NCBI GenBank assembly: GCA_947501445.1
Contig: CANMVS010000030.1
Span: 1 to 45,142, forward strand
Reading direction: 5' to 3'
DNA from: an uncultured Rhizobiaceae group bacterium
GTDB lineage: Bacteria; Pseudomonadota; Alphaproteobacteria; Rhizobiales; Rhizobiaceae
DNA length: 45,142 nt
Shown here in pieces: positions 2,152-29,537 of this stretch. Position 1 is the stretch's first letter, and every line of letters begins with the position of its first letter. The position numbers and the translations under genes are program-made. The notes beneath the pieces are model-generated. The model was not told the DNA's origin. It worked only from the letters and a program-made list of their open reading frames with translations, and ran no database searches.

Positions 2152-3093
2152 TTACAATTGCGCCCAGCCCTTGGTGCGCAGTTTCCAGCGCGGAAGATTA
2201 CCGGCTGTTGCTGCAACTTCTTCAACATAATTGGCACTGGCAAGGCGATACAGCCGCGACCTGACACTGGCGTAGGATTCCTCGCTATGATTTTCGCTTT
2301 TGGTGAGGATGGCATCGGTGCGTATGCCCTTGATCGAACGCCGGGTGTTGGGCTTTGCCGCAAGTGCACGGAGGATCAATTGGTCAAGCTCACTCAGTTT
2401 GAACCCTTCACGCTGATCGGTCTGCAGCTGCGCCGTTTCCTCAACCGTTATTTCATTCACCGGCGTCGCCTCAATCTGATCGTCATCCGGATCTTCAACC
2501 GGAACAGCACCCTGAAGTTCGGCGCGCAGCGCTTCTATCCTGGCATTGATTTCCGGTGCTCTGGCATCATCGGCAAGCTTTGCCTGTTTGCTGGCTTCTT
2601 CCGCTTCCGAGCGGGCCTGCACTGCAGCGGTTTTGGCCTGTTCGGCCTGCTGCAGGATTTTTGAAGACAGGTTTTGCAAAAATGTCGGTGAGGAAATGGC
2701 GGCCAGCACACAAAACCCACCGATAAGGGCAAGGCTGGAATAGGCCTTGGCCAGTTCTTCTGCATTGTCGGTTGCGCCCGCATTGACCAGAAAGATCGTA
2801 ATGATGTTCTTATCAACACCGATGGCAGCGAGTTGCAAAAACACCGGAATGACAAAGGCTGCAGCAACCCCCATCAACAGGCATTGAAAGAGCATTCGAT
2901 TGTTCAAAAAACGAACCCACCAGTGCCCCTGTGAGGTGGAGGCACTTTGTGGTGATCTGAGAAAATAGTTGACGGTGCCGCCCAGCAGCCCTGCAAGCAG
3001 CATAACCACAATCAACAGTGTAATATTTGCACCCACGTGGCTGGCATTTGCCAGCGTCGCAGCAGCACCTTCATTTGCAACAGGACCCGCCAT
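2152..3093 (-). CDS. three-TM coiled-coil protein, YLATT-like
   Basis: A 313-residue protein starting at ATG 3093, which has GGGGGA 5 nt upstream; a TTG four codons earlier is the alternative. Three membrane segments lie at about residues 23-46, 69-90 and 118-140, the last reading GGFCVLAAISSPTF. An Ala/Glu/Lys-rich coiled coil follows (about 150-200), then an acidic linker and a C-terminal segment of about 75 residues with the look of a winged helix (SELDQLILRAL, SVRSRLYRLA). The TM layout and the GFC-LAAISS segment resemble the YLATT family (YEATS-like-associating three TM), proposed to be the membrane part of signalling or conflict systems. That assignment is from memory. No YEATS partner is visible in the window. 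Confidence 0.6.
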   Translation of the reverse strand: MAGPVANEGAAATLANASHVGANITLLIVVMLLAGLLGGTVNYFLRSPQSASTSQGHWWVRFLNNRMLFQCLLMGVAAAFVIPVFLQLAAIGVDKNIITIFLVNAGATDNAEELAKAYSSLALIGGFCVLAAISSPTFLQNLSSKILQQAEQAKTAAVQARSEAEEASKQAKLADDARAPEINARIEALRAELQGAVPVEDPDDDQIEATPVNEITVEETAQLQTDQREGFKLSELDQLILRALAAKPNTRRSIKGIRTDAILTKSENHSEESYASVRSRLYRLASANYVEEVAATAGNLPRWKLRTKGWAQL

Positions 3094-3190
3094 GATTTCC
3101 CCCAATATTGTCAGGCAAATCTATTCACGTGAGCACATATGTCTGTGAACTATGTCACAACTCGGGTCACACGAACCCGGAAGCGCTCAA

Positions 3191-4129
3191 TCACTCGGTA
3201 TCCACACCGGCATGCAAACGGTGGCCAATTGCGGCTATTTCGCTCTGCAGATGGTCATGAACCGTGGACAGAAGATGCGAGCGAATATCGTCAGCATTGG
3301 TCAAAATGCCGAGATTGCGTGTGGGCGTACGGTCCAGCAATGGCAGTGCGACAATGCTGGTTCGGCGGGCCAGAGCAAATACAACGCTTTGCGGCATGAC
3401 AGTCAGACAATCGGAATATTCCAGATGGTTGACGACACTTGCAAAGGACCCGCCGGTGGAGGCAACGCGAACATTTTCCACACCAAGATTGCTGAGCATG
3501 GCCCTCATATCGTGGTTGAGCGGGCTGCCGGTTGGTGGCACGACCCAGCCATACTCCAGAAATGCCAGAGGTCTGGGTGTTGTCAATCTTGTGAGCGGGT
3601 GCCCTGCCCTGCAGGCAATGACATTGACGCCCTTCATCAGCGGCACGAATTGCAAATCCCGATCCATGACAACCGCATCCATCGGGCACAGTGCCATATC
3701 AAGCTCCCGGCGCTGAATGCGGCGGGTTAGCTGATCGGTATAGCCATAGGAAATTTCGAACTGAACCTTGCCGTTGATATCCTGAAACCCGGCCAGCAGC
3801 GGAATGACAACGGCGTCAAGGAAATAGGGTGGTCCACCGACACGCAGTGTTCCCTCCTCACCGCCCATGAATTGCTCCACCGCATTGGTGGCGCGATCCT
3901 GGGCCACCTGAATGGCGCGTCCCTGTGCTGCCAGTGTTTCACCCAGCGCCGTCATGCGCCATGGTCGCACCTTGCGGTCATAGAGCGGTGCACCAAGTCG
4001 GGCTTCGAGATCAGAAACCAGCCGTGACAGCGCCGGTTGTGATGTACCCAGCACCCGCGCCGCGGCGGTCAGCCCGCCACGGCGCTTGATCTCGTCCAGG
4101 GTCGCCAGATGTTTTGCGTCAATCTTCAT
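3191..4129 (-). CDS. LysR-family transcriptional regulator
   Basis: A 312-residue LysR-type regulator. The N-terminal winged HTH spans about residues 5-60 (LATLDEIKRRGGLTAAARVL, then TSQPALSRLV), followed by the substrate-binding-like effector domain (about 85-300). ATG 4129 gives the usual LysR N-terminus (MKIDAKHL); an in-frame ATG at 4150 and a TTG at 4168 are upstream alternatives, none with a good ribosome binding site. It is transcribed divergently from the maleylacetate reductase at 4243 that begins the aromatic catabolic operon, the standard arrangement for LysR activators of chlorocatechol and hydroxyquinol pathways. A dyad of LysR-box type overlaps its start. The inducer is probably a pathway intermediate (inference). 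Confidence 0.9.
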   Translation of the reverse strand: MKIDAKHLATLDEIKRRGGLTAAARVLGTSQPALSRLVSDLEARLGAPLYDRKVRPWRMTALGETLAAQGRAIQVAQDRATNAVEQFMGGEEGTLRVGGPPYFLDAVVIPLLAGFQDINGKVQFEISYGYTDQLTRRIQRRELDMALCPMDAVVMDRDLQFVPLMKGVNVIACRAGHPLTRLTTPRPLAFLEYGWVVPPTGSPLNHDMRAMLSNLGVENVRVASTGGSFASVVNHLEYSDCLTVMPQSVVFALARRTSIVALPLLDRTPTRNLGILTNADDIRSHLLSTVHDHLQSEIAAIGHRLHAGVDTE

Positions 4130-4150
4130 ATCAGTTTGATATGATATCAT
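4127..4150. promoter_or_regulatory. LysR-type operator (T-N11-A dyad) plus palindrome
   Basis: CATATC-N5-GATATG is a perfect inverted repeat (4127-4132 and 4138-4143) containing the LysR-box form T-N11-A. It is followed at once by the 10-bp palindrome ATGATATCAT (4141-4150). The pair lies at the start of the regulator and about 95 bp before the divergent catabolic genes. It probably serves autorepression and activation of the operon (inference). Confidence 0.55.
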
Positions 4151-4242
4151 AGGAAAACAATATTTCAATTATATGGTTGCTGTCTGTTACGCTTTCATTT
4201 CGACCATGAACAGGGCCGAAACCAGGCCAGTATCCGGAAGGA

Positions 4243-5316
4243 ATGCAGACGGTGACGCTGCAATTTGACTATACGGGAAGTCCAGCGCGTATTCTGTTTG
4301 GCGCAGGTATACGCAACCGCCTGCCAGAGATGGTGCGTGATCTGGGCTGCAGCCGCGTGCTGGTTCTGGCTACTTCACACCAAAAAGACGATGCTGACAC
4401 TTTGGCCTGCGCGCTGGGTGATTTGTGCCTGGGTGTCTATGCCAATGCGACCATGCATACTCCTGTCACTGTCACTGATGCTGCGATGCAGGTTGTCAGC
4501 GAACAACGGGTGGATCTTTTGATTGCTCTTGGTGGTGGTTCCACGACCGGATTGGCGAAGGCCATCGCCTATCGCACGGACCTGCCGCAGATCATCCTGC
4601 CGACAACCTACGCCGGCTCGGAAGTCACACCCATATTGGGCCAGACGGACAAGGGTGTGAAGAATACACTGAAAAGCCCCAGGGTCCTGCCCGAAGTGGT
4701 GCTTTACGATCCAGAACTCAGCAGCACCTTGCCGATGGAAATGAGCATTACCAGCGGTATCAACGCATTGGCTCATGCCGTCGAGGCACTCTATGCGCAG
4801 GACAATAATCCCATCAGTTCACTGATGGCGGCGGAGGGCGCACGTTCTCTCATCTGGGCACTGCCGCGCCTGTACAAGGATCCGCAGGATGGTGCCGGCC
4901 GGGAAAAGGCACTCTACGGGGCATGGCTGTGCGGTACGGTTCTGGGCAATGTCGGCATGGCGCTGCACCATAAGCTGTGTCACACGCTGGGCGGTACATT
5001 TGATCTGCCGCATGCGGAAACACATACCGTGGTTCTGCCACACGCAACCGCTTACAACGCGCCATCAGTGCCACAGGAGCTGGCACCCATTGCGGAGGCG
5101 CTGGGCACTGACAAACCGGGCCTTGGGCTGTTTCATTTTGCCCGCAAGCTTGGTGCTCCGACATCGCTTCGCGAACTCGGAATGCAGGAAGAGAGCATCG
5201 ACCGGGCTGCCGATATTGCCATGGCCAACCCCTACTGGAACCCACGAAAACTGGAACATGAAAAGATAAGAGCGCTGATCAAACAGGCCTATTTCGGAAC
5301 GCCGCCTGATCAATAG
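4243..5316 (+). CDS. maleylacetate reductase (iron-containing ADH fold)
   Basis: A 357-residue protein of the group III iron alcohol dehydrogenase superfamily, usual full length for maleylacetate reductases. The NAD(P)-binding GGGS lies at residues 97-100 (ALGGGSTTGLAKAIA), and the His-rich segment HHKLCHTLGG (His242, 243, 247) continues into DLPHAETHTVVLPHA, as in PnpE, TfdF and hydroxyquinol-pathway enzymes. It reduces maleylacetate to 3-oxoadipate in the cytoplasm and would complete the pathway of the ring-cleavage dioxygenase encoded at 11899. The GGAAGG before the ATG is only 1 nt away, unusually close, but no later start is plausible. It is the first gene of the + strand operon and is divergent from the LysR gene. 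Confidence 0.9.
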   Translation: MQTVTLQFDYTGSPARILFGAGIRNRLPEMVRDLGCSRVLVLATSHQKDDADTLACALGDLCLGVYANATMHTPVTVTDAAMQVVSEQRVDLLIALGGGSTTGLAKAIAYRTDLPQIILPTTYAGSEVTPILGQTDKGVKNTLKSPRVLPEVVLYDPELSSTLPMEMSITSGINALAHAVEALYAQDNNPISSLMAAEGARSLIWALPRLYKDPQDGAGREKALYGAWLCGTVLGNVGMALHHKLCHTLGGTFDLPHAETHTVVLPHATAYNAPSVPQELAPIAEALGTDKPGLGLFHFARKLGAPTSLRELGMQEESIDRAADIAMANPYWNPRKLEHEKIRALIKQAYFGTPPDQ

Positions 5317-5357: not shown

Positions 5358-6671
5358 ATGACACATAGATACAAACCAACGCGGCGCGCGTTTCTGGCGT
5401 CTTCTGCCGCAATCGGCACGGTCGCTGCCAGCGGTCTTTTTGCGCCCGCTGTGCATGCCCAGACACGGACGATCAAAATCGGCTATGTAAGTCCGCAAAC
5501 CGGACCTTTGGCAGCCTTCGCAGAGGTGGATCAATTCATCATAGACGGTTTCCTGAAAACCGTTTCAGGGGGAATACAGTCCGGCTCAAAGACCTATGCC
5601 ATAGAGGTTGTGGTCAAGGACAGCCAATCCAATCCAAACCGGGCCGCGGAAGTCGCCAAAGAACTTATTGTTGATGATGAAATTGACATCATGGTGGTTG
5701 CCCATACCCCCGAGACGACAAATCCGGTATCAACGATCTGCGAGATTGAGGAAATTCCTTGTCTATCAACACTGGCACCCTGGCAGCCATGGTTCATCGG
5801 ACGCCAGGGAAACCCGGCAGATCCGGGCACATGGGCACCTTTTGACTATACCTATCACTTCCTGTGGGGGCTTGAAGACCTGATCGCCGTCTTCACCAAT
5901 ATGTGGGGTCAGCTTGAGACCAATAAATCCGTGGGTGGGTTGTTTCCCAATGATGCCGATGGCAATGCCTGGGGGGACCCCAATGTCGGCATGCCGCCAG
6001 CGCTTGCGGGCCTGGGGTACAAATTGACCGATCCGGGGCGTTATGAAAACCTGCAGGACGATTTTTCAGCGCAGATTTCCGCCTTCAAGGAAGCAAACTG
6101 TGACATTGTGACCGGCGTGGTTCTGCCACCCGATTTTGCAACGTTCTGGACACAGGCTGCGCAACAGGGTTTCCGACCAAAGGTTGCTTCTGTTGGCAAG
6201 GCCATCCTGTTTCCTTCAGCCGTCAATGCCATTGGCGATGCGGCCCAGAACCTGAGTTCCGAGGTCTGGTGGTCGAATGTGCACCCGTTCAAGTCTTCGC
6301 TCAATGGGTTGAGCGCCGGTCAGGTATGTGAAGCCTATGAGAGTGCCACCGGACGCCAGTGGACACAGCCATTGGGGTTTGTCCACGCGCTGTTCGAAAT
6401 TGTGACTGACGTGATCAAACGGACGGACAATCCCGGTGATGCAGAGGAAGTAACCGCGGCAATCGCGGCGACGGATCTCAATACGATTGTTGGTCCGATC
6501 AAATGGGATGGCGCGCATCTGCCGCCTTTTGCGCAGAAGAATGTCACCAAAACACCATTGGTCGGCGGCCAGTGGCGCAAGGGCGATGATGGCCGGTTCA
6601 ACATCGTCATTGTAGACAATCAAACCTACCCGGATGTTCCGCTGGGTGGGGAAATGCAGGCGATTGGGTAG
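5358..6671 (+). CDS. ABC substrate-binding protein, BCAA/aromatic type
   Basis: A 437-residue periplasmic binding protein of the type I (Leu/Ile/Val, Peripla_BP_6) family. The N-terminus has a twin-arginine motif (TRRAFLASS) and a cleavage site after VHA near residue 35, so export by Tat is likely. A good Shine-Dalgarno (GGGAGG) lies 5 nt before the ATG. The mature protein begins TIKIGYVSPQTGPLA, the typical first beta strand of the family. It lies between maleylacetate reductase and the transporter genes, so its ligand is probably the aromatic substrate of the pathway, not an amino acid (inference). A terminator-like hairpin follows at 6681, probably to give more binding protein than membrane components. 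Confidence 0.92.
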   Translation: MTHRYKPTRRAFLASSAAIGTVAASGLFAPAVHAQTRTIKIGYVSPQTGPLAAFAEVDQFIIDGFLKTVSGGIQSGSKTYAIEVVVKDSQSNPNRAAEVAKELIVDDEIDIMVVAHTPETTNPVSTICEIEEIPCLSTLAPWQPWFIGRQGNPADPGTWAPFDYTYHFLWGLEDLIAVFTNMWGQLETNKSVGGLFPNDADGNAWGDPNVGMPPALAGLGYKLTDPGRYENLQDDFSAQISAFKEANCDIVTGVVLPPDFATFWTQAAQQGFRPKVASVGKAILFPSAVNAIGDAAQNLSSEVWWSNVHPFKSSLNGLSAGQVCEAYESATGRQWTQPLGFVHALFEIVTDVIKRTDNPGDAEEVTAAIAATDLNTIVGPIKWDGAHLPPFAQKNVTKTPLVGGQWRKGDDGRFNIVIVDNQTYPDVPLGGEMQAIG

Positions 6672-6724: not shown

Positions 6725-7438
6725 ATGCTACTTGAAATCCGCAATCTGAACCGAAAATTTGGCGCTATTGTTGTCGCTGACGACGTTACGCTTGACGTTG
6801 AAGAAGGTGAAGCCGTCGGCATTATCGGCCCGAATGGTGCAGGAAAATCATCGCTGTTTAACCTGATAACCGGTGTCTTGCGACCCGACAGCGGACAAAT
6901 CAGCCTCCAGGGCAAAGACATTACCCGCATGCCGGCACGCAACAGGGTATCGCTTGGTATCGGACGCAGTTTTCAAATACCGCAGCCCTTTGAACATATG
7001 ACGGTGTTTGAAAATACGTCGGTCGCAGCCTGCTTTGGCCGCAATGCCCGAGAAAGGGACGTGCAGGATGATGTGGTTGCCATATTGCACCAGACGGGGC
7101 TGTTGCCGCACGCCAACCTGCCCGCAGGCAGTCTTTCGTTGCTGGAGCGCAAGCGGCTTGAGATGGCCCGTTCGCTCGCCACCAACCCACAATTATTGTT
7201 GCTTGACGAAATTGCCGGCGGCCTGACGGACGCCGAGTGTCAGGGCCTTATACGCACAATCAGGGACATCAATGATACCGGCACCACGATCATCTGGATC
7301 GAGCACGTCACCCATGCTCTGCTCGCGGTGGTAAGCCGGCTCATAGCCATTGACTTTGGGAAAATCATAGCGCAGGGCAATCCTGCCGAGGTTATGGCAT
7401 CTGAAGTCGTGCAGAACATCTATCTGGGGATCGAATAA
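6725..7438 (+). CDS. livG: ABC transporter ATPase, LivG type
   Basis: A 237-residue ATPase of the LivG class. Walker A is GPNGAGKS (about residues 36-43), Walker B is LLLLDEIAGG, and the switch His is in WIEHV. The signature region reads SLSLLERKRLEMAR instead of a canonical LSGGQ, as occurs in some LivG proteins. The SD GGAAGAG lies 5 nt before the ATG. Its TAA overlaps the ATG of livF (TAATG), which indicates translational coupling. It should pair with LivF on the cytoplasmic face of the LivH/LivM channel. Confidence 0.92.
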   Translation: MLLEIRNLNRKFGAIVVADDVTLDVEEGEAVGIIGPNGAGKSSLFNLITGVLRPDSGQISLQGKDITRMPARNRVSLGIGRSFQIPQPFEHMTVFENTSVAACFGRNARERDVQDDVVAILHQTGLLPHANLPAGSLSLLERKRLEMARSLATNPQLLLLDEIAGGLTDAECQGLIRTIRDINDTGTTIIWIEHVTHALLAVVSRLIAIDFGKIIAQGNPAEVMASEVVQNIYLGIE

Positions 7439-8148
7439 TGACGCTCCTCAAAACCCACGCGCTGACTGCCTATTACGGCGACTTTCAGGCCCTTTACGGG
7501 ATCAGTGTGCACCTTGATGAAGGCGAGACCGTGTCCATTGTCGGCGCGAATGGTGCAGGCAAGTCAACGCTGATGGCGGCCCTCACCGGCCAATTGAAAT
7601 CCGCCGCAGACATGATCGAATTTGATGACAAGCCGATTGGCGGGTTGCGCCCCGCCGAAATTCTTTCTCGCGGCATCGCTCTGGTGCCGGAAGGGCGACA
7701 ACTTTTCCCCTCGCTTTCGGTTGAGGAAAACCTTCAGGTTGGCAATTACGGGCGCAAGACCCGCGGCCCGTGGAATCTGACACGGGTCTACAGCCTGTTT
7801 CCGATCTTGAAGGAGCGCAAAAATCAGGCATCGACATCACTATCAGGTGGCCAGCAGCAGATGGTGGCCGTTGGTCGCGCGCTGATGTCAAACCCGCGTT
7901 TGCTGTTATGCGATGAAATCAGTCTCGGTCTTGCGCCATCGGTCATCAAGGACATCTACAAAGCCATGGCTGAAATCCGCAGTGAAGGCGCAAGTGTCGT
8001 CGTGGTTGAACAGAATATCGGTCAGGCTTTGGCAGCCTCGGACCGGCTCTACTGCCTGCTGGAGGGACGCGTGACATTGACCGGACGGCCGGATGACTTG
8101 ACACGCGAACAAATCCGTCTGGCATATTTTGGTGGATCAAACCCATGA
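7438..8148 (+). CDS. livF: ABC transporter ATPase, LivF type
   Basis: A 236-residue ATPase with Walker A GANGAGKST, a full LSGGQQQMVAVGRAL signature, Walker B LLLCDEISLGL and the switch His replaced by Gln in the segment VVVEQNIGQAL, as is usual for LivF. It begins inside the livG stop and its own TGA overlaps the ATG of livH by 4 nt, so the transporter genes are tightly coupled. It is the second nucleotide-binding subunit of the importer for the aromatic substrate (inference from context). Confidence 0.92.
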   Translation: MTLLKTHALTAYYGDFQALYGISVHLDEGETVSIVGANGAGKSTLMAALTGQLKSAADMIEFDDKPIGGLRPAEILSRGIALVPEGRQLFPSLSVEENLQVGNYGRKTRGPWNLTRVYSLFPILKERKNQASTSLSGGQQQMVAVGRALMSNPRLLLCDEISLGLAPSVIKDIYKAMAEIRSEGASVVVVEQNIGQALAASDRLYCLLEGRVTLTGRPDDLTREQIRLAYFGGSNP

Positions 8149-9011
8149 TCTATCTCGATACAATCATTCAAGGTGTGCTGCTTGGCGGCCTTTATGCGCT
8201 GTTTGCGCTGGGTCTGAGCCTGATCTTCGGCATCATGCGTCTGGTCAATCTTGCCCATGGTGATCTGATGATACTGGGAGCCTTTGCGGTTCTGGTGGGT
8301 GTTGATGCGCTCGGTTTGCCAATTCCACTGGCGGCTGTCCTGGCAGGCATATTCATGTTCATGGTTGGATATGCATTGCAATATGTGCTGCTCAACCGCA
8401 CGCTTGGCCGTGATATTCTGCCGCCTTTACTGGTCACTTTTGGTCTGTCGATCATCCTGCAAAATGGCATGCTTGAAACCTTCTCAGCCGATACACAGCG
8501 GCTAAACATGGGTGGGTTGCAGGAAGCCTCCATTTCATTGTTCGGCGGCCTGGCAATCGGCATGGTGCCCCTCATCACTTTTATCTCCGCCATTGTTGTG
8601 ATCCTGTTTCTCAATTGGTTGTTTTACAGCACGGAAACGGGGCGCGCCTTTCGCGCAACATCCGACAATCCACAAATCGCCCAATTGATGGGTATCGACA
8701 ACGACAGGATCTTTGCCCTTGCCATGGCACTGGCCATGGTCATCGTCGCCATTGCGGGCCTGTATCTGGGCGCTCGTGCCACCTTCGATCCGCTGATCGG
8801 TCCGAGCCGCCTGATCTTCGCGTTTGAAGCGGTCATCATTGGCGGGCTGGGCAGTTTTTGGGGAACCCTGGCCGGTGGTATCATCCTGGGTCTTGCACAG
8901 ACCTTCGGTGCCCAGATCAACCCTGAATGGCAGATCCTGTCCGGTCATATCGTCTTTCTGATCATTCTTGTCATCAGGCCAAAGGGTCTGTTTCCGAGGG
9001 TTACAGGCTGA
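8145..9011 (+). CDS. livH: ABC transporter permease, LivH type
   Basis: A 288-residue integral membrane protein with about eight hydrophobic segments. The typical LivH start (IQGVLLGGLYALFALGLSLI, residues 8-27) is followed by GIMRLVNLAHGDLMILGA, and the conserved loop near the C-terminus reads EAVIIGGLGSFWGTLAGG. Its length is normal for the family. The gene overlaps livF by 4 nt, and its TGA overlaps the livM ATG at 9011 (TGATG). Confidence 0.93.
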   Translation: MIYLDTIIQGVLLGGLYALFALGLSLIFGIMRLVNLAHGDLMILGAFAVLVGVDALGLPIPLAAVLAGIFMFMVGYALQYVLLNRTLGRDILPPLLVTFGLSIILQNGMLETFSADTQRLNMGGLQEASISLFGGLAIGMVPLITFISAIVVILFLNWLFYSTETGRAFRATSDNPQIAQLMGIDNDRIFALAMALAMVIVAIAGLYLGARATFDPLIGPSRLIFAFEAVIIGGLGSFWGTLAGGIILGLAQTFGAQINPEWQILSGHIVFLIILVIRPKGLFPRVTG

Positions 9012-11902
9012 TGCTGGATCCCAAAAACTATACGGTTGCCAAGTCAACCCGGACCTCCAGAACAGCGCTGGTATTCATCTTTGTGCTTGTTGTCCTTTTG
9101 GCTGTTGCACCGGCGCTCGTCAGCCGTTCACTGCTGCAGGATCTGTTTTTTGTTTTGACAATGATTGCGCTGGCCCAGTGCTGGAACCTGCTTGCCGGTT
9201 ACGGCGGTCTGGTCAGTGTCGGTCAGCAGGCCTTTGTCGGACTTGGTGCCTATATCGGGTTTGCCGGGTCCATATTGTGGGGACTGAACCCCATGCTGGC
9301 CATATTGCTTGCCGGTGTTGTCGGTGCTGCACTCAGCGTGCCAACAGCCTTTGTCGTGTTCCGACTGCAGGGTGCCTATTTTGCCATAGGTACCTGGGTT
9401 GCCGCGGAAGTTTATCGGCTGGTCTTTGCGCAATGGAAAGCGCTTGGCGGCGGCACCGGTACATCATTGCCATCTGGCGTGGCGAAATCCATTGCCGGCC
9501 TTTCATGGGTACGCGAGGGTCTGGACATCAAATCCTCCGCCGCACGTGACGTCATATCCTACTGGATTGCATTGGCTCTGGTGGTTGTCATCGTAGGGGC
9601 GATCTATGCTTTCCTGCGCACCCGTTCGGGGCTGGCACTATCGGCCCTGCGCGACAATGAGACGGCCGCAGAAAGTATTGGCGTTGATACGCGAAGGGCA
9701 AAATTTGCGGTCTATATATTCGCAGCCTTCGGAGCGGCGATCACCGGTGCGCTGATCTTTTTTCAAAAGGCATCCATTACCCCGCAGAGCGCTTTTTCGG
9801 TAATCGACTGGACAGCCTTTGTTCTTTTTATTGTGGTCATCGGCGGCATTGGCACGATCGAGGGCCCGATCATCGGGGCACTGATACTGTTTGTTCTGCA
9901 AAACTGGTTTGCCGATTATGGCACCTGGTATCTGATGGCCCTGGGCGCCATCGCCATCGCTGTCATGCTGGTGGCGCCACGGGGTATCTGGGGACTGGTG
10001 CAGGCAAAGTACGATTTTTCGATATTCCCAACCCGCAGAAGGTTGCTGGGGCCGGACACTCCGGTTCCCGATTACACCCAACCGATCCGCGAGATGAAAC
10101 TGCCGCCCGCCAAGGGTGTGCACGCTGCGGATACGCCGCTGGAGGTCCCAACAATGTTTGATATTGAGACTGACGTTCTGATCATTGGTTCCGGCCCTGC
10201 CGGCGGTGCCTCTGCTGCCCTTCTGTCAAGCTATGGCATCGCCAATATCATGATTGAGAAATACGGCTGGCTTGCCAATACGCCGCGTGCCCATATTACC
10301 AATCAGCGTGCCATGGAGGTGTTGCGCGAGCTGGGCATTGAGGAAGACGCAATTGCAAAATCTGTCCCGCAGGAACTGATGGGCAATAATGTATTTTGCA
10401 CTGCGCTGGCAGGAGAGGAAATTGGCCGCCTGCTGACCTGGGGCAATCACCCAAGTCGCAAAGCCGACTATGATCTGGCAAGCCCATGCCGCATCTGCGA
10501 CATTCCGCAAACATTGCTTGAGCCCATCATTGTCGCAAAGGCCATGGAAAGCGGCACGATTACCCGTTTCAAAACCGAATACATAAGCCATACACAGGAT
10601 GAAAATGGCGTTGTGGCCACTGTGCGTGACCGGGTGGCCAATGAAATTTACCGCATTCGCGCCAAATATATGATCGGTGCCGATGGGGCCAATTCGCTGA
10701 TTGCCGAGCAATTGGGTTTGCCAATGGATGGCAAGATGGGGCTGGAGGGTTCGATGAATATCGAATTTGAGGCCGATCTGTCGAAATATGTCGCCCACCG
10801 GCCATCGGTCCTTTACTGGATATTCCAGCCCGGTGCCGACATCGGTGGCATCGGTGCCGGTGTTGTACGCATGGTTCGCCCCTGGAACAAATGGCTGTCG
10901 ATCTACGGATTTGACATAAAGGATGGTCCTCCAAACCTTTCAACCGATGAGGCGGAACAGATTGTTCGTCAGCTCATTGGCGACGACGAAATCCTCATCA
11001 AGATCGGCAAACTTTCTTACTGGACCATCAACAATATGGTCGCACGGCGATACGCCAAGGGACGGGTGTTTTGTATGGGAGACGCGGTGCACCGCCACCC
11101 GCCCACCAACGGGCTTGGCTCGAATACATCGATACAGGATGCCTATAACCTTTGCTGGAAGCTCAAACTGGTATTGGAGGGCAAGGCCGATGCCAGCCTG
11201 CTCGACACCTATAACGACGAACGCCAGCCCGTCGGTCGTCAGATCGTTACCCGCGCCAATAAATCCATTGAGGATTATGGTCCGATCTTCGAAACACTCG
11301 GCATTACGCAGGGGGGCAGCGCAGATGATGTCAAGCGCCGTATGGACTCACGCAAGCAGCCGACCGTCGAGGCGGAGGCCAAGCGCAAGGCGCTCAACAA
11401 ATACATCCGGCAAAAATCCTATGAGTTCAACTGCCATGGGGTCGAACTTGGTCAAAGGTACAGTTCGAGTGCCATTGTCAGCGACCACACAGCGGAACCG
11501 GAATATACCAGGGATCGCGAACTCTACTACCATCCGACGACGTGGCCCGGTGCGCGGATTCCACATGTCTGGCTTGATCGCGACCAGCAGAGTGTTTCCA
11601 CACTTGATCTTGTAGGACGCGGAAGATTTGTGCTGCTGACAGGCGTTTCCGGCGCAGGATGGATGGAGGCCGCCGCACGGGCTTCGGCAGAACTGGACAT
11701 CGCCCTGGACGCCATTCAGATCGGCCCGGGTTGCAGCGTCAATGACACATTTGGCGATTGGGCCATGCAAAGCGAAGTCAGTGACAGCGGCATGATACTG
11801 GCAAGACCGGACGGCCACGTCGCCTGGCGGTCGCATATGCTCAGTGCCAATCCCACAGGCGATCTACTGGCTGTCATGCGCCAGATACTTGGGAGAACAT
11901 GA
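9011..11902 (+). CDS. livM: LivM permease read in frame into a TfdB-like hydroxylase
   Basis: From the ATG at 9011 (overlapping the livH stop) one frame runs 963 codons with no stop between two proteins. Residues 1 to about 331 are a full LivM permease (QCWNLLAGYGGLVSVGQQAF, then ALRDNETAAESIGVDTRRAK, ending in the TM before APRGIWGLV). A tail of about 50 residues rich in Pro and Arg follows, and then the flavoprotein begins at residue 382. Normally livM would stop in that tail. Either the cell makes a membrane-tethered hydroxylase, or the hydroxylase starts independently at 10154 and the permease is made only as a fusion. A lost stop codon from mutation or sequencing error cannot be excluded. 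Confidence 0.75.
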   Translation: MLDPKNYTVAKSTRTSRTALVFIFVLVVLLAVAPALVSRSLLQDLFFVLTMIALAQCWNLLAGYGGLVSVGQQAFVGLGAYIGFAGSILWGLNPMLAILLAGVVGAALSVPTAFVVFRLQGAYFAIGTWVAAEVYRLVFAQWKALGGGTGTSLPSGVAKSIAGLSWVREGLDIKSSAARDVISYWIALALVVVIVGAIYAFLRTRSGLALSALRDNETAAESIGVDTRRAKFAVYIFAAFGAAITGALIFFQKASITPQSAFSVIDWTAFVLFIVVIGGIGTIEGPIIGALILFVLQNWFADYGTWYLMALGAIAIAVMLVAPRGIWGLVQAKYDFSIFPTRRRLLGPDTPVPDYTQPIREMKLPPAKGVHAADTPLEVPTMFDIETDVLIIGSGPAGGASAALLSSYGIANIMIEKYGWLANTPRAHITNQRAMEVLRELGIEEDAIAKSVPQELMGNNVFCTALAGEEIGRLLTWGNHPSRKADYDLASPCRICDIPQTLLEPIIVAKAMESGTITRFKTEYISHTQDENGVVATVRDRVANEIYRIRAKYMIGADGANSLIAEQLGLPMDGKMGLEGSMNIEFEADLSKYVAHRPSVLYWIFQPGADIGGIGAGVVRMVRPWNKWLSIYGFDIKDGPPNLSTDEAEQIVRQLIGDDEILIKIGKLSYWTINNMVARRYAKGRVFCMGDAVHRHPPTNGLGSNTSIQDAYNLCWKLKLVLEGKADASLLDTYNDERQPVGRQIVTRANKSIEDYGPIFETLGITQGGSADDVKRRMDSRKQPTVEAEAKRKALNKYIRQKSYEFNCHGVELGQRYSSSAIVSDHTAEPEYTRDRELYYHPTTWPGARIPHVWLDRDQQSVSTLDLVGRGRFVLLTGVSGAGWMEAAARASAELDIALDAIQIGPGCSVNDTFGDWAMQSEVSDSGMILARPDGHVAWRSHMLSANPTGDLLAVMRQILGRT
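10141..10156 (+). promoter_or_regulatory. internal ribosome binding site before hydroxylase ATG
   Basis: GGAGGT at 10141-10146 stands 7 nt before the ATG at 10154, inside the continuous livM-hydroxylase frame. It is as good as any Shine-Dalgarno in the operon and lies exactly where TfdB-type enzymes normally begin, so separate translation of the hydroxylase is likely. Confidence 0.7.
10154..11902 (+). CDS. FAD aromatic hydroxylase, 2,4-dichlorophenol 6-monooxygenase-like
   Basis: A 582-residue product from the internal ATG, the usual length for TfdB/PheA-type class A flavin monooxygenases. It has the dinucleotide-binding GSGPAGGASA near residue 12, the substrate-side segment ANTPRAHITNQRAMEVLREL, the DG motif (MIGADGANSL) and the second FAD motif (VFCMGDAVHRHPPTNGLGSN), with a C-terminal thioredoxin-like domain starting around PGARIPHVWLD. 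It hydroxylates phenols with NAD(P)H and O2. The neighbours suggest a product of the catechol or hydroxyquinol type. Its TGA overlaps the ATG of the next gene by 4 nt. The exact substrate and halogen preference cannot be read from the sequence. Confidence 0.85.
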   Translation: MFDIETDVLIIGSGPAGGASAALLSSYGIANIMIEKYGWLANTPRAHITNQRAMEVLRELGIEEDAIAKSVPQELMGNNVFCTALAGEEIGRLLTWGNHPSRKADYDLASPCRICDIPQTLLEPIIVAKAMESGTITRFKTEYISHTQDENGVVATVRDRVANEIYRIRAKYMIGADGANSLIAEQLGLPMDGKMGLEGSMNIEFEADLSKYVAHRPSVLYWIFQPGADIGGIGAGVVRMVRPWNKWLSIYGFDIKDGPPNLSTDEAEQIVRQLIGDDEILIKIGKLSYWTINNMVARRYAKGRVFCMGDAVHRHPPTNGLGSNTSIQDAYNLCWKLKLVLEGKADASLLDTYNDERQPVGRQIVTRANKSIEDYGPIFETLGITQGGSADDVKRRMDSRKQPTVEAEAKRKALNKYIRQKSYEFNCHGVELGQRYSSSAIVSDHTAEPEYTRDRELYYHPTTWPGARIPHVWLDRDQQSVSTLDLVGRGRFVLLTGVSGAGWMEAAARASAELDIALDAIQIGPGCSVNDTFGDWAMQSEVSDSGMILARPDGHVAWRSHMLSANPTGDLLAVMRQILGRT

Positions 11903-13842
11903 TGGAAAAGAGGTCAATCAGAGACTATGTCCGCGCGGCCAATGTGCCCCTGAGCGATCCGGATAAAAACCGGTTGATCGGCAGCGGCAGTCCACGCTTT
12001 GAAGTCTATCATTTCGCGCTGTCGGTCTGTTCCCACAAGGTGCGTACCTGCCTTGCAGAAAAAAATGCAGCCTATCTGAGCCACGACATCGGGATTTTGC
12101 CTCCGGCACTTGAGAACTACCACCCCGACTATGTACGGTTGCGCATGCAAGGTGGCAGGGGACGCGAATTGGTTGGTGGATATACCGGTCGCTCGTCAAC
12201 CCAGACTGAGGGTTTTGACCCCGCAGTCGTTCCAACCCTGGTTGATCTGCAAAGCGAGCAGGTGATTGTCGACAGCGTGAAAATCTGCGCCCATATCGAC
12301 GCGACCTGCGACACGGGGCCAAGCCTTTTGCCTGATCGCCTGCGCCGGGACATTGATCGGGAGATAGCCATCGTTGACGGAACGCCCCATGTTGCTGTGC
12401 TTTATGGCGCACATCCGGATGGCGACTTTCGCCCGAAAATGCTGCAAAAAAACATGCCGGGTGCCCATGACTACAAAATCATGAAACTGATGGAAGCCCG
12501 TTCACTCAGCGTCGGCCACCCCAAGCTGATCGCGGCCTATGATGCCAAAATCCGCAAGGAAGCTTCGGCAAAAACCTATGTCGCCACACCTGAGCTGATG
12601 CGCGATGCGACCACTGAAATCATTGCCATCATCGCCGATCTGGACAGTCGGCTTTCTGACGGGCGGGCGTGGGTTTGCGGAGACGCATTCACCATGGCCG
12701 ACATTCAATGGGCGGTCAGTCTGTTTCGTCTCAAATGGCTTGGCATGGCCTTTTCGTGGACGGGCGATCACCCGCTCAACAACAATCAGCACAGCAATGT
12801 TGCAGCCTATGCCGGGCGGCTGTTTGACCGGCCATCTTTTCGTGATGCTGTCATCCATTGGCCCGGCAATCCGCCATCTGAATATGTGATGGAATTTTAT
12901 GAAAACCTGCAGGATCAGGACCCGGCGAAAGGTGAGCGGGGTCATCGTGACAGGCACAAACAGCATGGTGGCCACGGGCGTGACATAAAGGAAGAAAACC
13001 TGACGGATGCCGTGCTGGAAACAATGAAGGGCACTGAAAATCCACGCGCGAAAAAGGTTCTGAATGCGTTTACGCGCCATCTGCATGCCTTCCTGCAGGA
13101 GATTGAGCCGACTGAGGAAGAATGGGAATGGGGCATTGATTTTCTGACGAAAACCGGACATTTGAGCACCGGTGGCAGACAGGAATTTGTGCTGTTGTCC
13201 GATGTTATGGGCGCAACCGCACGCGTCGACCTGATCAACAATCGCTTTCCTGACGGCGCGACAGAGAACTCGGTTCTTGGGCCGTTTTTTGTCGAGGAGC
13301 GTCCGACATTTGAAAACGGTCAGGATATTTCCGGCGGAATTTCCGGTGAGCCGATGTATTTCAGCGCCCGTGTTCTGGATGCTGACCGACAACCGATTGT
13401 CGGTGCCAGAGTTGATATCTGGCATTCCGATGATGACGGATCCTATGACATCATGATGCCGCAGCTGGATGGTCAACTGGCCATGCGCGGGCTGTTTAGA
13501 AGCGACAATCACGGCCGGTTCTGGTTTACCTCCATTCTACCCACATCCTATCCAATCCCCGATGACGGTACCGTTGGAACAATCCTAAAAACAGCCAGGC
13601 GAAGCCCGATGCGCCCGGGCCACGTTCACGTGCGTGTTGAAGCACCCGGATTCCGCCGCCTGACCACAATGCTGTTTCTGGATGGTGATGAATATCTCGA
13701 CAGCGATCCGGTCTTTGGGGTCAAACAATCGCTTGTCATGCGTTTTGAAAAGAAAACCAATCTTCGCATGCCCGACGGCAAGGCAGCGCCCAGCCCTTGT
13801 TTTACCGTCGACTACGACTTTATTCTGGCAAGGAAAGACTGA
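11899..13842 (+). CDS. GST-type dehalogenase fused to intradiol dioxygenase
   Basis: A 647-residue two-enzyme protein. Residues ~35-335 are a glutathione transferase close to PcpC/LinD hydroquinone dehalogenases: YHFALSVCSHKVR gives Ser42 and Cys44, matching the catalytic SxC pair of PcpC, and ENYHPDYVRL and FTMADIQWAVSLFRLKWLGM also match. A charged His-rich linker follows (~338-370; HRDRHKQHGGHG). Residues ~370-647 are a hydroxyquinol/chlorocatechol 1,2-dioxygenase with N-terminal helical domain and all four Fe(III) ligands: Tyr516, Tyr551 (SYPIPDDG), His575 and His577 (GHVHV). No in-frame start with a good ribosome binding site precedes the second domain, so this is a real fusion. It probably removes a halogen and then cleaves the ring to (halo)maleylacetate, the substrate of the reductase at 4243. 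Confidence 0.88.
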   Translation: MMEKRSIRDYVRAANVPLSDPDKNRLIGSGSPRFEVYHFALSVCSHKVRTCLAEKNAAYLSHDIGILPPALENYHPDYVRLRMQGGRGRELVGGYTGRSSTQTEGFDPAVVPTLVDLQSEQVIVDSVKICAHIDATCDTGPSLLPDRLRRDIDREIAIVDGTPHVAVLYGAHPDGDFRPKMLQKNMPGAHDYKIMKLMEARSLSVGHPKLIAAYDAKIRKEASAKTYVATPELMRDATTEIIAIIADLDSRLSDGRAWVCGDAFTMADIQWAVSLFRLKWLGMAFSWTGDHPLNNNQHSNVAAYAGRLFDRPSFRDAVIHWPGNPPSEYVMEFYENLQDQDPAKGERGHRDRHKQHGGHGRDIKEENLTDAVLETMKGTENPRAKKVLNAFTRHLHAFLQEIEPTEEEWEWGIDFLTKTGHLSTGGRQEFVLLSDVMGATARVDLINNRFPDGATENSVLGPFFVEERPTFENGQDISGGISGEPMYFSARVLDADRQPIVGARVDIWHSDDDGSYDIMMPQLDGQLAMRGLFRSDNHGRFWFTSILPTSYPIPDDGTVGTILKTARRSPMRPGHVHVRVEAPGFRRLTTMLFLDGDEYLDSDPVFGVKQSLVMRFEKKTNLRMPDGKAAPSPCFTVDYDFILARKD

Positions 13843-13923: not shown

Positions 13924-15573
13924 ATGTCTGTCATCTGGACTAGTCTTCTCATCTTTGTGATTGCAGTTATCGTTGCAATTGTCATTCTGGCAAAACTCTA
14001 CCGCAAGGCAACCCGCGAAGTCAGCCTGATCCGCACGGGTATCGGCGGTGAGCGGGTTATTCTGGCCGGTGGCGGCATTGCCCTGCCCTATTTTCACGAG
14101 GTGACAGAGGTTAATATGCGCACGCTTCGCCTGGAAGTGAGACGTGCCGATGAAGACAGTCTGATCACCAAAGACCGATTGCGCATGGACATTGGTGCCA
14201 GTTTCTCGGTCGCGGTCGAGGGCACCGCAGACGCCGTATCAAAGGCAGCCCAAACGTTGGGTGAGCGTACTTTCAGCGCTGAAAAACTGCGTGAAATTGT
14301 CGAGGGGAAGTTTCTCGATGCCCTGCGCGCAGTTGCTGCGCAGATGACCATGGACGAGGTGCATGAGGGTCGGGCCAAATTTGTCAAAGACGTGCGCGCA
14401 CTGATCACGGATGACCTCAGCGAAGTCGGCTTGAGGCTTCAATCGGTTTCACTCACATCACTGGATCAAACATCCTTCTCGGCACTGGATGAAAACAATG
14501 CCTTTAATGCCGTCGGCATGCGCAAGCTTGCCGAGGTTATTGCCGTATCAAAGAAGGAACGGGCCGAGATCGACGCAGATGCCGAGGTTTCCGTGCGACT
14601 GTCATCAATGGAAGCAACCCGCCGTAAACTCGAAATAGAGCAGGATGAAGAACAGGCGCGCATTGCCCAGCATCAGGAAATCGAGACGCTCAGGGCAGCA
14701 CAATTGGCGGAAATTGCGCGCCGGCGCGCCGCATCCGAGGAAGCCGCTGAGGCTGCACGGATCAACAAGGAAAAATCGATCCGGGAAGCGGAAATTGCGC
14801 GCGAACGCACGGTACGCGCAGCTGAGATATCACGCGATCTGGACGTCCAGGCCAGTGAGATAGCAAAAGAACGCGATTTGCAGATTCAACAGCAGGAGCG
14901 CCAGATTTCCATCGCCGAAAAAGCGGTGGCGGAAAGCACTGCAAAAGCTGCCGCAGACCGGGCGCGGGCAGGTGCAGCAGAGGCAGAAGCATCCATTGCA
15001 ACGGCGCAACGCTTTGCCGAAGCGGAACGCGACAAGATGCTGGCGTTGCTCGACGCTCAGGAAAAGGCCGAAGCAGATGGTGCGCGGCTGCGGGTACTGG
15101 CAAAGGCTGAAAATGATGCTTCGATTGATCACGCAGCCGCCCGGTTGCAGGCAGCCACAGCGGAAGCTGACAGTGAACGTGTACGGGCAGCCGCAAGGCG
15201 CGAATCTCTGCTTGCCGAAGCGGAAGGACAAAAAGCCCTTCACGAGGCAGAAAATGTTCTTGATGAGCGGCTGATACAGATGAAGGAGGAAATTGCCCGT
15301 ATTGAAACCCTGCCGAAAGCCATTGCGGAAATGGTCAAACCGGCCGAACGCATTGATTCCATCAAAATACACAATGTGACCGGCCTGGGTGGTGGTGCCG
15401 CTGGAACCGCTGGTTCCAATGAAAGTAAAACGCCGGTCAACCAGGCGCTGGATTCAATTTTGGGCATGGCGGTACAATTACCGGCGCTGAAAACCCTCGG
15501 CGACGAACTTGGTCTGTCGATGGGTGAAGGTATGAAGGAGGCCACTGACAAATCACCAAAGAAAATCAAATAG
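13924..15573 (+). CDS. flotillin/SPFH-domain membrane scaffold protein
   Basis: A 549-residue flotillin-like protein with a perfect Shine-Dalgarno (AAGGAGGT, 5 nt). One N-terminal membrane segment (residues 3-24) precedes the SPFH/PHB domain (about 28-200, including GGIALPYFHEV and FLDALRAVAAQMTMDEVHEG). A long Ala/Glu/Arg coiled coil (about 205-470) follows, then a low-complexity Gly/Ala segment and a short C-terminal tail. Flotillins oligomerise in membrane microdomains and often affect transporters. It lies 81 bp after the dioxygenase on the same strand, so it may belong to the catabolic operon, possibly organising the importer or helping with membrane stress from phenols (inference). No NfeD-type partner is seen. 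Confidence 0.9.
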   Translation: MSVIWTSLLIFVIAVIVAIVILAKLYRKATREVSLIRTGIGGERVILAGGGIALPYFHEVTEVNMRTLRLEVRRADEDSLITKDRLRMDIGASFSVAVEGTADAVSKAAQTLGERTFSAEKLREIVEGKFLDALRAVAAQMTMDEVHEGRAKFVKDVRALITDDLSEVGLRLQSVSLTSLDQTSFSALDENNAFNAVGMRKLAEVIAVSKKERAEIDADAEVSVRLSSMEATRRKLEIEQDEEQARIAQHQEIETLRAAQLAEIARRRAASEEAAEAARINKEKSIREAEIARERTVRAAEISRDLDVQASEIAKERDLQIQQQERQISIAEKAVAESTAKAAADRARAGAAEAEASIATAQRFAEAERDKMLALLDAQEKAEADGARLRVLAKAENDASIDHAAARLQAATAEADSERVRAAARRESLLAEAEGQKALHEAENVLDERLIQMKEEIARIETLPKAIAEMVKPAERIDSIKIHNVTGLGGGAAGTAGSNESKTPVNQALDSILGMAVQLPALKTLGDELGLSMGEGMKEATDKSPKKIK

Positions 15574-15683: not shown

Positions 15684-16844
15684 ATGTCACGATCTTTCAA
15701 ACCATCCCATCGCGGTGCAACACCCAGTATTGCCGAGGAAATGCACCGCCGTGCGGGCGCCGTTGAGGCCAAGGGGCAAAAGGTCCTTTATCTCAGCGTT
15801 GGACAACCGAGCACACCAGCCCCGGCTGGGGCAATGGCGGCATTTCAAAAGGCCAGCAATGAGTCAATCATGGGTTACACCGGCGCAGCCGGTATCGAAC
15901 CGCTGCGCCAGCGGATTGCCCGGCATTACCAGGAAAACTATGGCGTTGCGATTGCACCGAACCGGGTTCTGATTACGCTGGGTGCATCCGGTGCACTGAT
16001 TCTGGCGCTCATCAGCTGCTTCGATAGCGGTGCACGGGTTGCCCTGCCGCAACCGTTTTATTTTGCCTATCGCCATGTGATGTCCACGCTGGGTATTGAG
16101 TGCGTGCCATTTTATCCCAGTATGGAAAACCATTTCCAGCCTACTGTGGCTGATCTGGAGAAAATCGAAGGCCGCATCGACGGACTTATCTTTGCAAGCC
16201 CGGGCAATCCGACCGGATCCATGATCAAGCCCGATCAAATGGGTGAAATAGCTCAATATTGCGAGACCCGCGGTATTCGGCTGATCTCCGATGAGATTTA
16301 TCATGGCATCATCTATGGCGACAAAACCCAACAGCGTACGGCTCTATCCTATGCGCCCCATGCAGTTGTCATGAACAGTTTCTCAAAATATTATTCCATG
16401 CCCGGCTGGCGTCTTGGATGGATGGTTGCGCCGGAAAATCTTGTCGAACCCATCGCCAATCTTGCGCATAATCTCTATATCGCCCCCCCTGCTCCCGCCC
16501 AATATGCCGCTCTTGCTGCACTTGATTGCACCGACGAGCTGGACGGTCATGTGGCACGCTACAGGCGAAACCGCGATATCATGCTGCGCGAGATGCCAAA
16601 AGCCGGGTTCGACCGGTTTACTGCGCCGGACGGCGGGTTTTATCTGTTTTGCCATGTTGCCCACCTGCACAAGGACAGTGTGCGTTTTTGCATCGATATG
16701 CTTGAAGAATGTGGTGTGCTGGCAGCACCGGGTACGGATTTTTCTCCGGCCCACGGCCACCATTTCGTTCGCTTCTCCTACGCGGGCAGCACACAGGAGA
16801 TTGAGGACGCGATGGCACGCCTCAAAAAATGGCGTGCGGTTTAG
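15684..16844 (+). CDS. class I/II PLP-dependent aminotransferase
   Basis: A 386-residue fold-type I aminotransferase (AspC/AAT superfamily). The PLP lysine is Lys235 in SFSKYYSMPGWRLGW; SPGNPTGSMIKPDQM carries the Asn-Pro-Thr-Gly segment, and LISDEIYHGIIYG contains the Asp and Tyr that contact PLP. ATG 15684 is chosen because AGGA lies 6 nt upstream; a TTG at 15642 and an ATG at 15660 lack ribosome binding sites. A possible TTGACA -35 lies at 15625. Substrate unknown. The stop codon abuts copy 1 of the dispersed hairpin repeat, and a decayed copy of this gene's 3' end lies 1.8 kb downstream. Confidence 0.9.
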   Translation: MSRSFKPSHRGATPSIAEEMHRRAGAVEAKGQKVLYLSVGQPSTPAPAGAMAAFQKASNESIMGYTGAAGIEPLRQRIARHYQENYGVAIAPNRVLITLGASGALILALISCFDSGARVALPQPFYFAYRHVMSTLGIECVPFYPSMENHFQPTVADLEKIEGRIDGLIFASPGNPTGSMIKPDQMGEIAQYCETRGIRLISDEIYHGIIYGDKTQQRTALSYAPHAVVMNSFSKYYSMPGWRLGWMVAPENLVEPIANLAHNLYIAPPAPAQYAALAALDCTDELDGHVARYRRNRDIMLREMPKAGFDRFTAPDGGFYLFCHVAHLHKDSVRFCIDMLEECGVLAAPGTDFSPAHGHHFVRFSYAGSTQEIEDAMARLKKWRAV

Positions 16845-16950
16845 ACCGTTTCACGTTTTGTCAGAAACGGGACAACGGTGTTGGCCTTTGATTTTGTTGA
16901 TGCATTCAGGTTCTGCCGCACCAACAGGCACCTTCAAACCAATGACCGAC
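16845..16950 (+). repeat. dispersed bipartite hairpin repeat, copy 1
   Basis: It begins at the nucleotide after the aminotransferase stop. The first hairpin has CCGTTT and AAACGG arms (16846-16870). Then come GGGACAACGGTGTTGGCC and TTGATTTTGTTGATGC, and the start of the second hairpin (ATTCAGGTTCTG), whose right arm is decayed here. It matches copies at 21356, 26021 and 29446 (complement), and partly the one at 18784. Confidence 0.8.
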
Positions 16951-18652: not shown

Positions 18653-18783
18653 ACAGGAATTGGCACATTGGCGGCACCGGGCTCGGAATATTCTCCGGCC
18701 CGGGGCGCTGTTTTATTCGCCAGTCCCACGCGGGCAGCACACCGGACATTGAGGAAGCAAGGGCGCGCCTTGGTGTCTGTTGA
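18653..18783 (+). pseudogene. frameshifted remnant of an aminotransferase 3' end
   Basis: One frame reads GIGTLAAPGSEYSPARG, and after a frameshift near 18700-18716 another reads FIRQSHAGSTPDIEEARARL and stops at TGA. The intact aminotransferase (15684-16844) ends ECGVLAAPGTDFSPAHG, then FVRFSYAGSTQEIEDAMARL. DNA identity is high in blocks such as GCGGGCAGCACAC and TCTCCGGCCC. It is followed directly by a copy of the same repeat that follows the intact gene, so the two tails are homologous with their flanks. Confidence 0.8.
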
Positions 18784-18820
18784 TGCATTCAGGTTTTGCC
18801 AATACCGTCAAAATCTGATC
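18784..18820 (+). repeat. dispersed hairpin repeat, partial copy 5
   Basis: Only the second hairpin is left: TGCATTCAGGTTTTG (left arm ending 18798), then CCGTCAAAATCTGAT with two changes in the right arm. It lies directly after the aminotransferase remnant, matching the order gene end then repeat at 16845. Confidence 0.7.
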
Positions 18821-18888
18821 TGCTCCAATTAATGGCGCGCCGCACAGGCCGTTTGCCATTGGCAGGCAAGTTACCAGGCATTTTCGGC

Positions 18889-21285: not shown

Positions 21286-21355
21286 ACCAGTTGTTGCCAA
21301 TCAAACGGCTGCTTGTCCACACTATCGTCTTTTTTTGAAACAATATGTCAACGGG

Positions 21356-21449
21356 ACCGTTTTACGTTTTATCAGAAACGGGACAACGGTGTCGGCCTTT
21401 GATTTTGGTTGATGCATTCAGGTTTTGCCGATTCCGTCAAAACCTGAAT
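21356..21449 (+). repeat. dispersed bipartite hairpin repeat, copy 2
   Basis: The best preserved copy. The first hairpin has CCGTTT and AAACGG arms. The second is a perfect 12-bp stem, ATTCAGGTTTTG (21416-21427) with CAAAACCTGAAT (21438-21449), and a 10-nt loop. It lies downstream of the MFS gene in sense orientation and 51 nt upstream of the FecR gene start. Confidence 0.85.
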
Positions 21450-21500
21450 TGCCATAGTGCTGCAGAACTGCCCGGTTACTGCACAACAGGGGGTATACTC

Positions 21501-28280: not shown

Positions 28281-28314
28281 AGCGATTCCATCAATACATG
28301 TATCTGCAAGCGGA

Positions 28315-28332: not shown

Positions 28333-28423
28333 CCATTACGTTCGTCTTGTTTTGACAAAAATAATTGGCAAAGTACCCCAGCAAAGGCTGCACTGACGCA
28401 GAAATCCTTTTACTCAAATGCTC

Positions 28424-29535: not shown

Positions 29536-29537
29536 GT

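Follow-up and report, generated by a model that had tools for sequence, protein, structure and literature searches.

LinD of Sphingobium indicum UT26S (WP_013035740.1, plasmid pCHQ1), annotated as a 2,5-dichlorohydroquinone reductive dechlorinase, is a single-domain glutathione S-transferase (GST), and LinE, annotated as a chlorohydroquinone/hydroquinone 1,2-dioxygenase, is encoded by a separate gene. MnpD of Cupriavidus CNP-8, another single-domain protein, shares 40% identity with LinD; the substrate induces it together with its pathway, and it was proposed to dechlorinate 2-amino-5-chlorohydroquinone (PMC5604080). In DrcA, a dechlorinase of the GST type, the cysteine resolves the glutathione adduct and a cysteine mutant halts at this adduct (PMC3205185). 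On the side of ring cleavage, the hydroxyquinol 1,2-dioxygenases of the PDB entry 1TMX and of RW1 (Swit_4890 on pSWIT02) are standalone proteins of ~290-300 amino acids (aa). We report here a gene in which these two kinds of proteins are joined. It lies in a stretch of 45,142 nucleotides from an uncultured Rhizobiaceae group bacterium (contig CANMVS010000030.1), which we call the window, and is a single open frame of 647 codons on the forward strand (11899-13842) whose product has a GST at its N terminus and an intradiol dioxygenase of the hydroxyquinol type at its C terminus.

The two halves of the fusion protein

The initial annotation of the window had predicted this frame, its two domains and six catalytic residues, and all of them are confirmed. 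The Pfam domains GST_N_2 (42-135), GST_C_2 (234-292), Dioxygenase_N (381-454) and Dioxygenase_C (462-644) score above their gathering thresholds in the 647-aa protein. Ser42, Cys44, Tyr516, Tyr551, His575 and His577 are invariant in all ten sequences of an alignment, A1, which consists of the window and the loci L004-L012; L013, the contig of which begins at residue 44, and L050 and L051, which were found later, were left out of it. The annotation had also held that no internal start with a good ribosome binding site precedes the second domain. Within 25 codons on either side of the domain border, marked by an HGRD motif, the in-frame ATG, GTG and TTG codons have no Shine-Dalgarno-like string upstream in 10 of the 11 fused sequences, the exception being L010, with AGGA ahead of one TTG.

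The GST half is of the LinD type, as had been suggested under the name PcpC/LinD-like, the comparison being made with LinD only. LinD is its best match on plasmids (41.8% identity over 97% of the query), the pairwise identity is 42.2% over 341 aa, i.e. the full GST length, and the two share the motif S-V-C-S. LinD differs in its separate dioxygenase gene, while the partner in the window is an intradiol enzyme in the same chain. The Ser-x-Cys pair in the glutathione (GSH) site is found throughout A1, and has W in place of C in L050 and L051. In midpoint-rooted GST trees LinD and L042 form, with starred support, the sister group of a clade holding the fused GSTs and the standalone L040 and L041. 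Plasmid p2 of C. pinatubonensis HN-2 encodes a GST similar to MnpD that is 39% identical to the GST half over 343 aa; like the window, the clusters of this GST and of MnpD (PMC5604080) contain an iron-containing alcohol dehydrogenase (Fe-ADH), or proposed maleylacetate reductase. When the GST half is searched by sequence against solved structures, nine of the ten matches are GDAP1 and the remaining one is the GST 4o7h (E 0.0011).

Two other classes were considered for the GST half and rejected. It does not belong to the zeta-class maleylacetoacetate isomerases, scoring 21.1 bits with the maiA model against a cut-off of 171.05. The CPWAHR-type motif that marks the Xi-class glutathionyl-hydroquinone reductases is absent by eye, with no dedicated model run. 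Among the relatives of the GST we also observed a tryptophan 2,3-dioxygenase-family gene directly 5' of the MnpD-type GST in L036 (9056-9946, annotated), L015 (7040-7879) and L047 (10087-10926), the latter two by similarity seen by eye. The standalone relative of the window GST in L040 directly follows another GST gene (9229-9963, Pfam GST), whose S-x-C motif is similar.

For the dioxygenase half the best solved relative is the hydroxyquinol 1,2-dioxygenase 1TMX (E 1.1e-79). The 6-chlorohydroxyquinol 1,2-dioxygenase 8r2x follows at 1.9e-70 and the best (chloro)catechol dioxygenase reaches only 1.2e-31, placing the domain with the hydroxyquinol rather than the catechol type and bearing out the earlier assignment. 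Its identity to the RW1 hydroxyquinol dioxygenase is 50.5%. Counted along the alignment, the four ligand positions correspond to Tyr164, Tyr197, His221 and His223 of 1TMX, which we take to be the iron ligands of that enzyme, and the two tyrosines and two histidines are all present. The window thus resembles 1TMX and Swit_4890 over the full dioxygenase half, ligands included, and differs in that those two stand alone.

Distribution, origin and selection

The GST-dioxygenase architecture is rare but real. When 84,980 species, each represented by one genome, were scanned by pattern, 12 loci emerged: ten fused ones, all in metagenome-assembled genomes (L004-L013), one with the dioxygenase only (L014) and one with the GST only (L015). 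Other chains with both domains, which the initial annotation had proposed to look for, are therefore present in L004-L013 and, in addition, in L050 of the genome G397. We also searched overlapping samples of genomes at four taxonomic levels with the GST as the query. Three of 297 genomes matched in the family sample (E 1e-30): the genome of the window itself, G097 with a fused gene and G130 with a standalone one. The matches of G097 are the same as those of L008, so that the two are the same locus. Three of 397 matched in the order sample (1e-25), namely the own genome, G397 (fused) and G477, where the contig ends inside the GST. The class (385 genomes) and phylum (398) samples gave the own genome only. 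A search of 61 related genomes found standalone GSTs with 64% identity in G002 and G003, both of the same genus, and no site covering 80% of the fused protein was found in 72,556 plasmid records.

Since the same fused frame recurs in separate assemblies, a sequencing frameshift or an assembly join is ruled out. The initial annotation had named a frameshift, or homologues always encoded separately, as grounds against the fusion; homologues are fused as well, though not always, as the GSTs of G002 and G003 show. In a tree with 22 standalone rows, the 12 fused rows group into one clade by their dioxygenase halves, with support 100/100. This fits a fusion that happened once and then spread through alphaproteobacterial groups, and the record titles of the fused loci span Boseongicola, Silicimonas, Albidovulum, Geminicoccaceae and Hyphomicrobiales. 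With L051 treated as fused and without the duplicates L016, L017 and L045, a test for the fused GSTs forming one clade gave p 0.47. The GST tree would allow the standalone GSTs of G002 and G003 to have branched off before the fusion event or after it, neither being shown.

The ratio of nonsynonymous to synonymous substitution rates (dN/dS) was calculated for six pairs of close relatives drawn from L004, L005, L006, L009 and L011, with the pair L010-L012 left out. The GST half has values of 0.12-0.24, the dioxygenase half 0.03-0.10 and a 24-codon linker 0.16-0.77. Both halves are under purifying selection and are kept, the GST half being less constrained.

The operon around the fusion gene

The features of the fusion gene and of its surroundings are collected in Table 1. 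The initial annotation had taken in neither the permease-hydroxylase fusion nor the flotillin, nor the unfused operons described below.

Table 1. Features of the fusion gene and its operon, in window coordinates
Feature	Position	Strand	Basis
Divergent LysR regulator	3191-4168	-	HTH_1 + LysR_substrate
Maleylacetate reductase-like Fe-ADH	4243-5316	+	52.6% identity to Fe-ADH beside RW1 hydroxyquinol dioxygenase
Liv-type periplasmic substrate-binding protein	5358-6671	+	Peripla_BP_6
LivG-type ATP-binding cassette (ABC) ATPase	6725-7438	+	ABC_tran
LivF-type ABC ATPase	7438-8148	+	ABC_tran
LivH-type permease	8145-9011	+	BPD_transp_2
LivM permease (likely ATG 9011) and flavin adenine dinucleotide (FAD) phenol hydroxylase (Met at 10154), one 991-codon frame	8927-11902	+	BPD_transp_2, FAD_binding_3, Rng_hyd_C
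GGAGG, 8 nt ahead of internal ATG 10154, possible nested start	10141-10145	+	
GST domain, LinD-type, residues 1-335	11899-12903	+	Pfam GST_N_2/GST_C_2; 42% over 341 aa to LinD (pCHQ1)
Ser42 codon; Cys44 codon	12022-12024; 12028-12030	+	Invariant in A1
Hydrophilic variable linker, ~residues 336-361	12904-12981	+	Variability in A1, in-frame length differences
Hydroxyquinol 1,2-dioxygenase-type intradiol domain, Tyr516/Tyr551/His575/His577	12982-13842	+	Pfam Dioxygenase_N/C; 1TMX E 1.1e-79
Flotillin (Band_7 + Flot, above gathering score)	13924-15573	+	81 bp 3' of fusion gene

A second fusion precedes the GST-dioxygenase gene, in which the permease LivM is joined to a hydroxylase. Among solved structures the hydroxylase part best matches 2-hydroxybiphenyl 3-monooxygenase (E 2.3e-186) and 2,4-dichlorophenol 6-monooxygenase (4.7e-161). 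This second fusion is found in all nine loci that have both genes beside the GST or GST-dioxygenase gene (window, L004-L007, L009, L011, L050 and L051), and neither LivM nor this hydroxylase occurs within the stretches examined of L008, L010, L012 and L013. A GGAGG, GAGG or GGAG lies 8-9 nt 5' of the internal ATG of the hydroxylase in 7/7 sequences (window, L004, L005, L006, L007, L009 and L011). With such a Shine-Dalgarno-like site a free hydroxylase may also be made, and nested translation is possible on these grounds; the same codons encode a conserved Glu. An AlphaFold model of the LivM-hydroxylase from 7 sequences, with a predicted local distance difference test score (pLDDT) of 34.1, is too poor for use.

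A flotillin gene lies 3' of the fusion gene in all 12 loci that have downstream sequence (window, L004-L013 and L050; L051 ends earlier). No flotillin was found beside 20 standalone hydroxyquinol-type dioxygenases (L002, L014, L018-L034 and L052), most of which have flanks of only 0.2-1.5 kb, and none in six of these 20 read again with ~10 kb on each side (L057-L062). In L008 and L050, outside this count of 20, the flotillin of the fused locus has another dioxygenase, a standalone one, 1-3 kb away. The window flotillin scores 53.3 bits with the FloT equivalog, below the cut-off of 700, and a weaker relative (39%) is encoded elsewhere in the own genome. Among the stretches examined, those of the window, L004, L005, L006, L008, L009 and L011 match the maleylacetate reductase.

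L010 and L012 are fused loci with no Liv genes within the stretch examined; 2-5 kb ahead of the fusion they encode a hydroxylase of the HpaB family together with a flavin reductase. The PDB matches of the L012 hydroxylase include the chlorophenol monooxygenases 4oo2, 3hwc, 4g5e and 6jhm, with the 4-hydroxyphenylacetate hydroxylase 2yyg and a 4-nitrophenol enzyme scoring ahead of them. This would fit a (halo)phenol pathway without proving one. In the same loci (L012 4615-5823, L010 3000-4199) the HpaB-family hydroxylase adjoins a gene for a single chain that combines flavin reductase and LysR substrate-binding domains.

The operon has unfused counterparts in three other genomes. In L058, L059 and L060 maleylacetate reductase, binding protein, LivG, LivF, LivH, LivM, hydroxylase and dioxygenase are separate genes in this order, LivM terminating before the hydroxylase begins behind a purine-rich site of its own. 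In L059 the reductase is preceded by an additional dioxygenase. None of the three has a GST match or a flotillin match, and the idea that the GST is an ancient part of the hydroxyquinol operon is therefore unsupported. L057 has Liv genes and dioxygenase in this order with no such hydroxylase between them. The window shares the genes and their order with L058-L060 and, unlike them, fuses LivM to the hydroxylase and a GST to the dioxygenase and has a flotillin. It thus looks like a derived version, in which the permease and the hydroxylase would have become one chain, the dioxygenase would have gained an inserted LinD-type GST as its fusion partner, and a flotillin would have been added. In the order sample 39 of 397 genomes match the LivM-hydroxylase query at E 1e-150, and the alignment runs uninterrupted through LivM in only three of the 39 (own, G397 and G477). 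In G053 it crosses a stop, and in the other 35 it starts no earlier than query residue 322. Three of the remaining 36 were inspected (L066-L068), and they have LivM in another frame or behind a stop.

Each part of the system is of a known kind. The initial annotation knew of no described enzyme with the architecture of the GST-dioxygenase chain, and this agrees with open-licence PubMed Central (PMC) full texts, where none of the matches listed describes a GST-dioxygenase fusion, a LivM-monooxygenase fusion or a flotillin partner.

Elsewhere in the window, an aminotransferase gene tail with the sequence following it (16720-16917) recurs as diverged direct repeats of 79-94% identity at 18669-18823 and 21355-21452, at distances of ~1.9 and ~4.5 kb, representing either an old duplication or what is left of a mobile element. 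Two large flavoproteins (702 and 711 aa, with amine-oxidase-type matches) flank an acetoacetate decarboxylase-like gene at 26172-31673, and they are adjoined by a protein of 1401 aa (31712-35917) that contains cyclase and AAA domains. A protein with a YLATT domain (PF20303) is encoded on the reverse strand at 2152-3105.

Proposed function and alternatives

We propose, with about an even chance of being right, that the fusion protein is a bifunctional enzyme which strips a halogen from a halogenated (hydroxy)hydroquinone and then cleaves the resulting hydroxyquinol. From the observed sequence, fusion, conservation, operon and relation to LinD and 1TMX we infer a halogenated substrate, an order of steps and channelling. 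The Liv-type importer would bring in a phenol, and the hydroxylase fused to LivM would hydroxylate it in the ortho position. The LinD-type GST, using GSH with Ser42 and Cys44, would then reductively dehalogenate a halogenated hydroquinone or hydroxyquinol: GSH would attack, Cys44 would resolve the glutathione adduct and a second GSH would free Cys44. The C-terminal iron(III) dioxygenase would open hydroxyquinol to maleylacetate, and the maleylacetate reductase of the cluster would convert this to 3-oxoadipate. Having two steps on one chain could keep the easily oxidised hydroxyquinol near the site of ring cleavage. The proposal draws on the full-length relation to LinD and the position in the tree, on the invariance of the catalytic residues of both halves in A1, and on the precedents of MnpD (PMC5604080) and DrcA (PMC3205185). 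It draws also on the apparent addition of a GST to an existing hydroxyquinol operon, on hydroxylase relatives that include 2,4-dichlorophenol 6-monooxygenase, and on the neighbours of the fusion in L010 and L012.

Several observations weigh against this proposal. The operon itself names no halogenated substrate, and a GST is absent from the unfused operons whose hydroxylase is of the same family. The maleylacetate reductase has no match in the stretches of L007, L010, L012, L013, L050 and L051, of the two halves the GST is the faster to evolve in the 6 pairs, and an AlphaFold model of the fusion from 13 sequences (pLDDT 55.3) is too poor for use, leaving no structural model. Trp replaces the catalytic Cys44 in L050 (G397) and L051 (G477). 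The surrounding genes are retained: L050 has the binding protein, the Liv genes, the LivM-hydroxylase, the GST-dioxygenase fusion and the flotillin, and L051 has the same genes from the binding protein to the contig end inside the GST. The hydroxylase is 72% identical to that of the window in both loci and the dioxygenase half of L050 74%, the GST half just 47-49%, and between L050 and L051 the dN/dS is 0.31 for the GST (196 codons) and 0.14 for the LivM-hydroxylase. A reductive dehalogenase without this cysteine is unlikely given the precedent of DrcA, whose Cys mutant stops at the adduct (PMC3205185), and it is accordingly unlikely that reductive dehalogenation is what every member does. In the branch of L050 and L051 the GST may have another role or may be decaying. 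Dehalogenation could still be an optional addition to the pathway in view of this substitution, which weakens the claim of a core role. The dehalogenase reading of the initial annotation fits the relation to LinD and the presence of Ser42 and Cys44 in A1, and this branch speaks in part against it.

The same branch speaks for a GST half that is chiefly structural, serving dimerisation or docking to the membrane or to the flotillin, with the dioxygenase as the sole catalyst. The substitution of Cys44, the gap between 74% and 47% identity in L050 and the higher dN/dS of the GST would all suit such a role. Ser42 and Cys44 are nevertheless invariant in the ten other members, down to 65% protein identity, and we regard a structural role as quite improbable. 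Somewhat better placed, though still unlikely in our view, is a role in quinone housekeeping, where by the same cysteine chemistry and with no halogen the GST half would reduce glutathione adducts formed when hydroxyquinol is oxidised to hydroxybenzoquinone, returning hydroxyquinol to the dioxygenase. Both the hydroxyquinol dioxygenase as a partner and the lack of an obvious halogenated-substrate gene in the operon agree with this, and the resolution of a glutathione adduct is the second half of the dechlorinase mechanism proposed in PMC3205185. But the unfused operons L058-L060 manage without a GST, Cys44 is lost in L050 and L051 where hydroxyquinol would still arise, and the nearest characterised relative found, LinD, is a dechlorinase. 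We give very little credence to the GST half being a zeta-class-like isomerase, which would act on the ring-cleavage product (maleyl- to fumaryl-type) after rather than before cleavage. The Ser-x-Cys region is common to zeta-class GSTs and there is a weak maiA match (E 2e-4, far below the cut-off), but LinD itself yields the same weak match and maleylacetate reductase requires no isomerised product.

If the fusion protein is the bifunctional dehalogenase and dioxygenase that we propose, the arrangement of its neighbours suggests that the operon could be a one-stop line for the degradation of halogenated phenols. We speculate further, as a doubtful extension, that LivM carrying the hydroxylase, the chain for dehalogenation and ring cleavage, and a dedicated flotillin gathering them may form a membrane-bound metabolon, in which a toxic halogenated phenol would be imported, hydroxylated, dehalogenated and opened without release. 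The names IRC3 and RHO1 of metagenome-assembled genomes (MAGs) resemble those of the sponges Ircinia ramosa and Rhopaloeides odorabile, and the prefixes may refer to them. Both species are among the sponges sampled in PMC8163846, and sponges make brominated metabolites (PMC12203066). If true, an aerobic dehalogenase and a ring-cleavage enzyme would occur in one chain beside a permease-hydroxylase chain, in bacteria that may in part originate from marine sponges. This would provide a naturally linked enzyme set for halogenated phenols and a test case for substrate channelling and flotillin-organised catabolism, with the branch in which Trp replaces Cys44 as a natural control.

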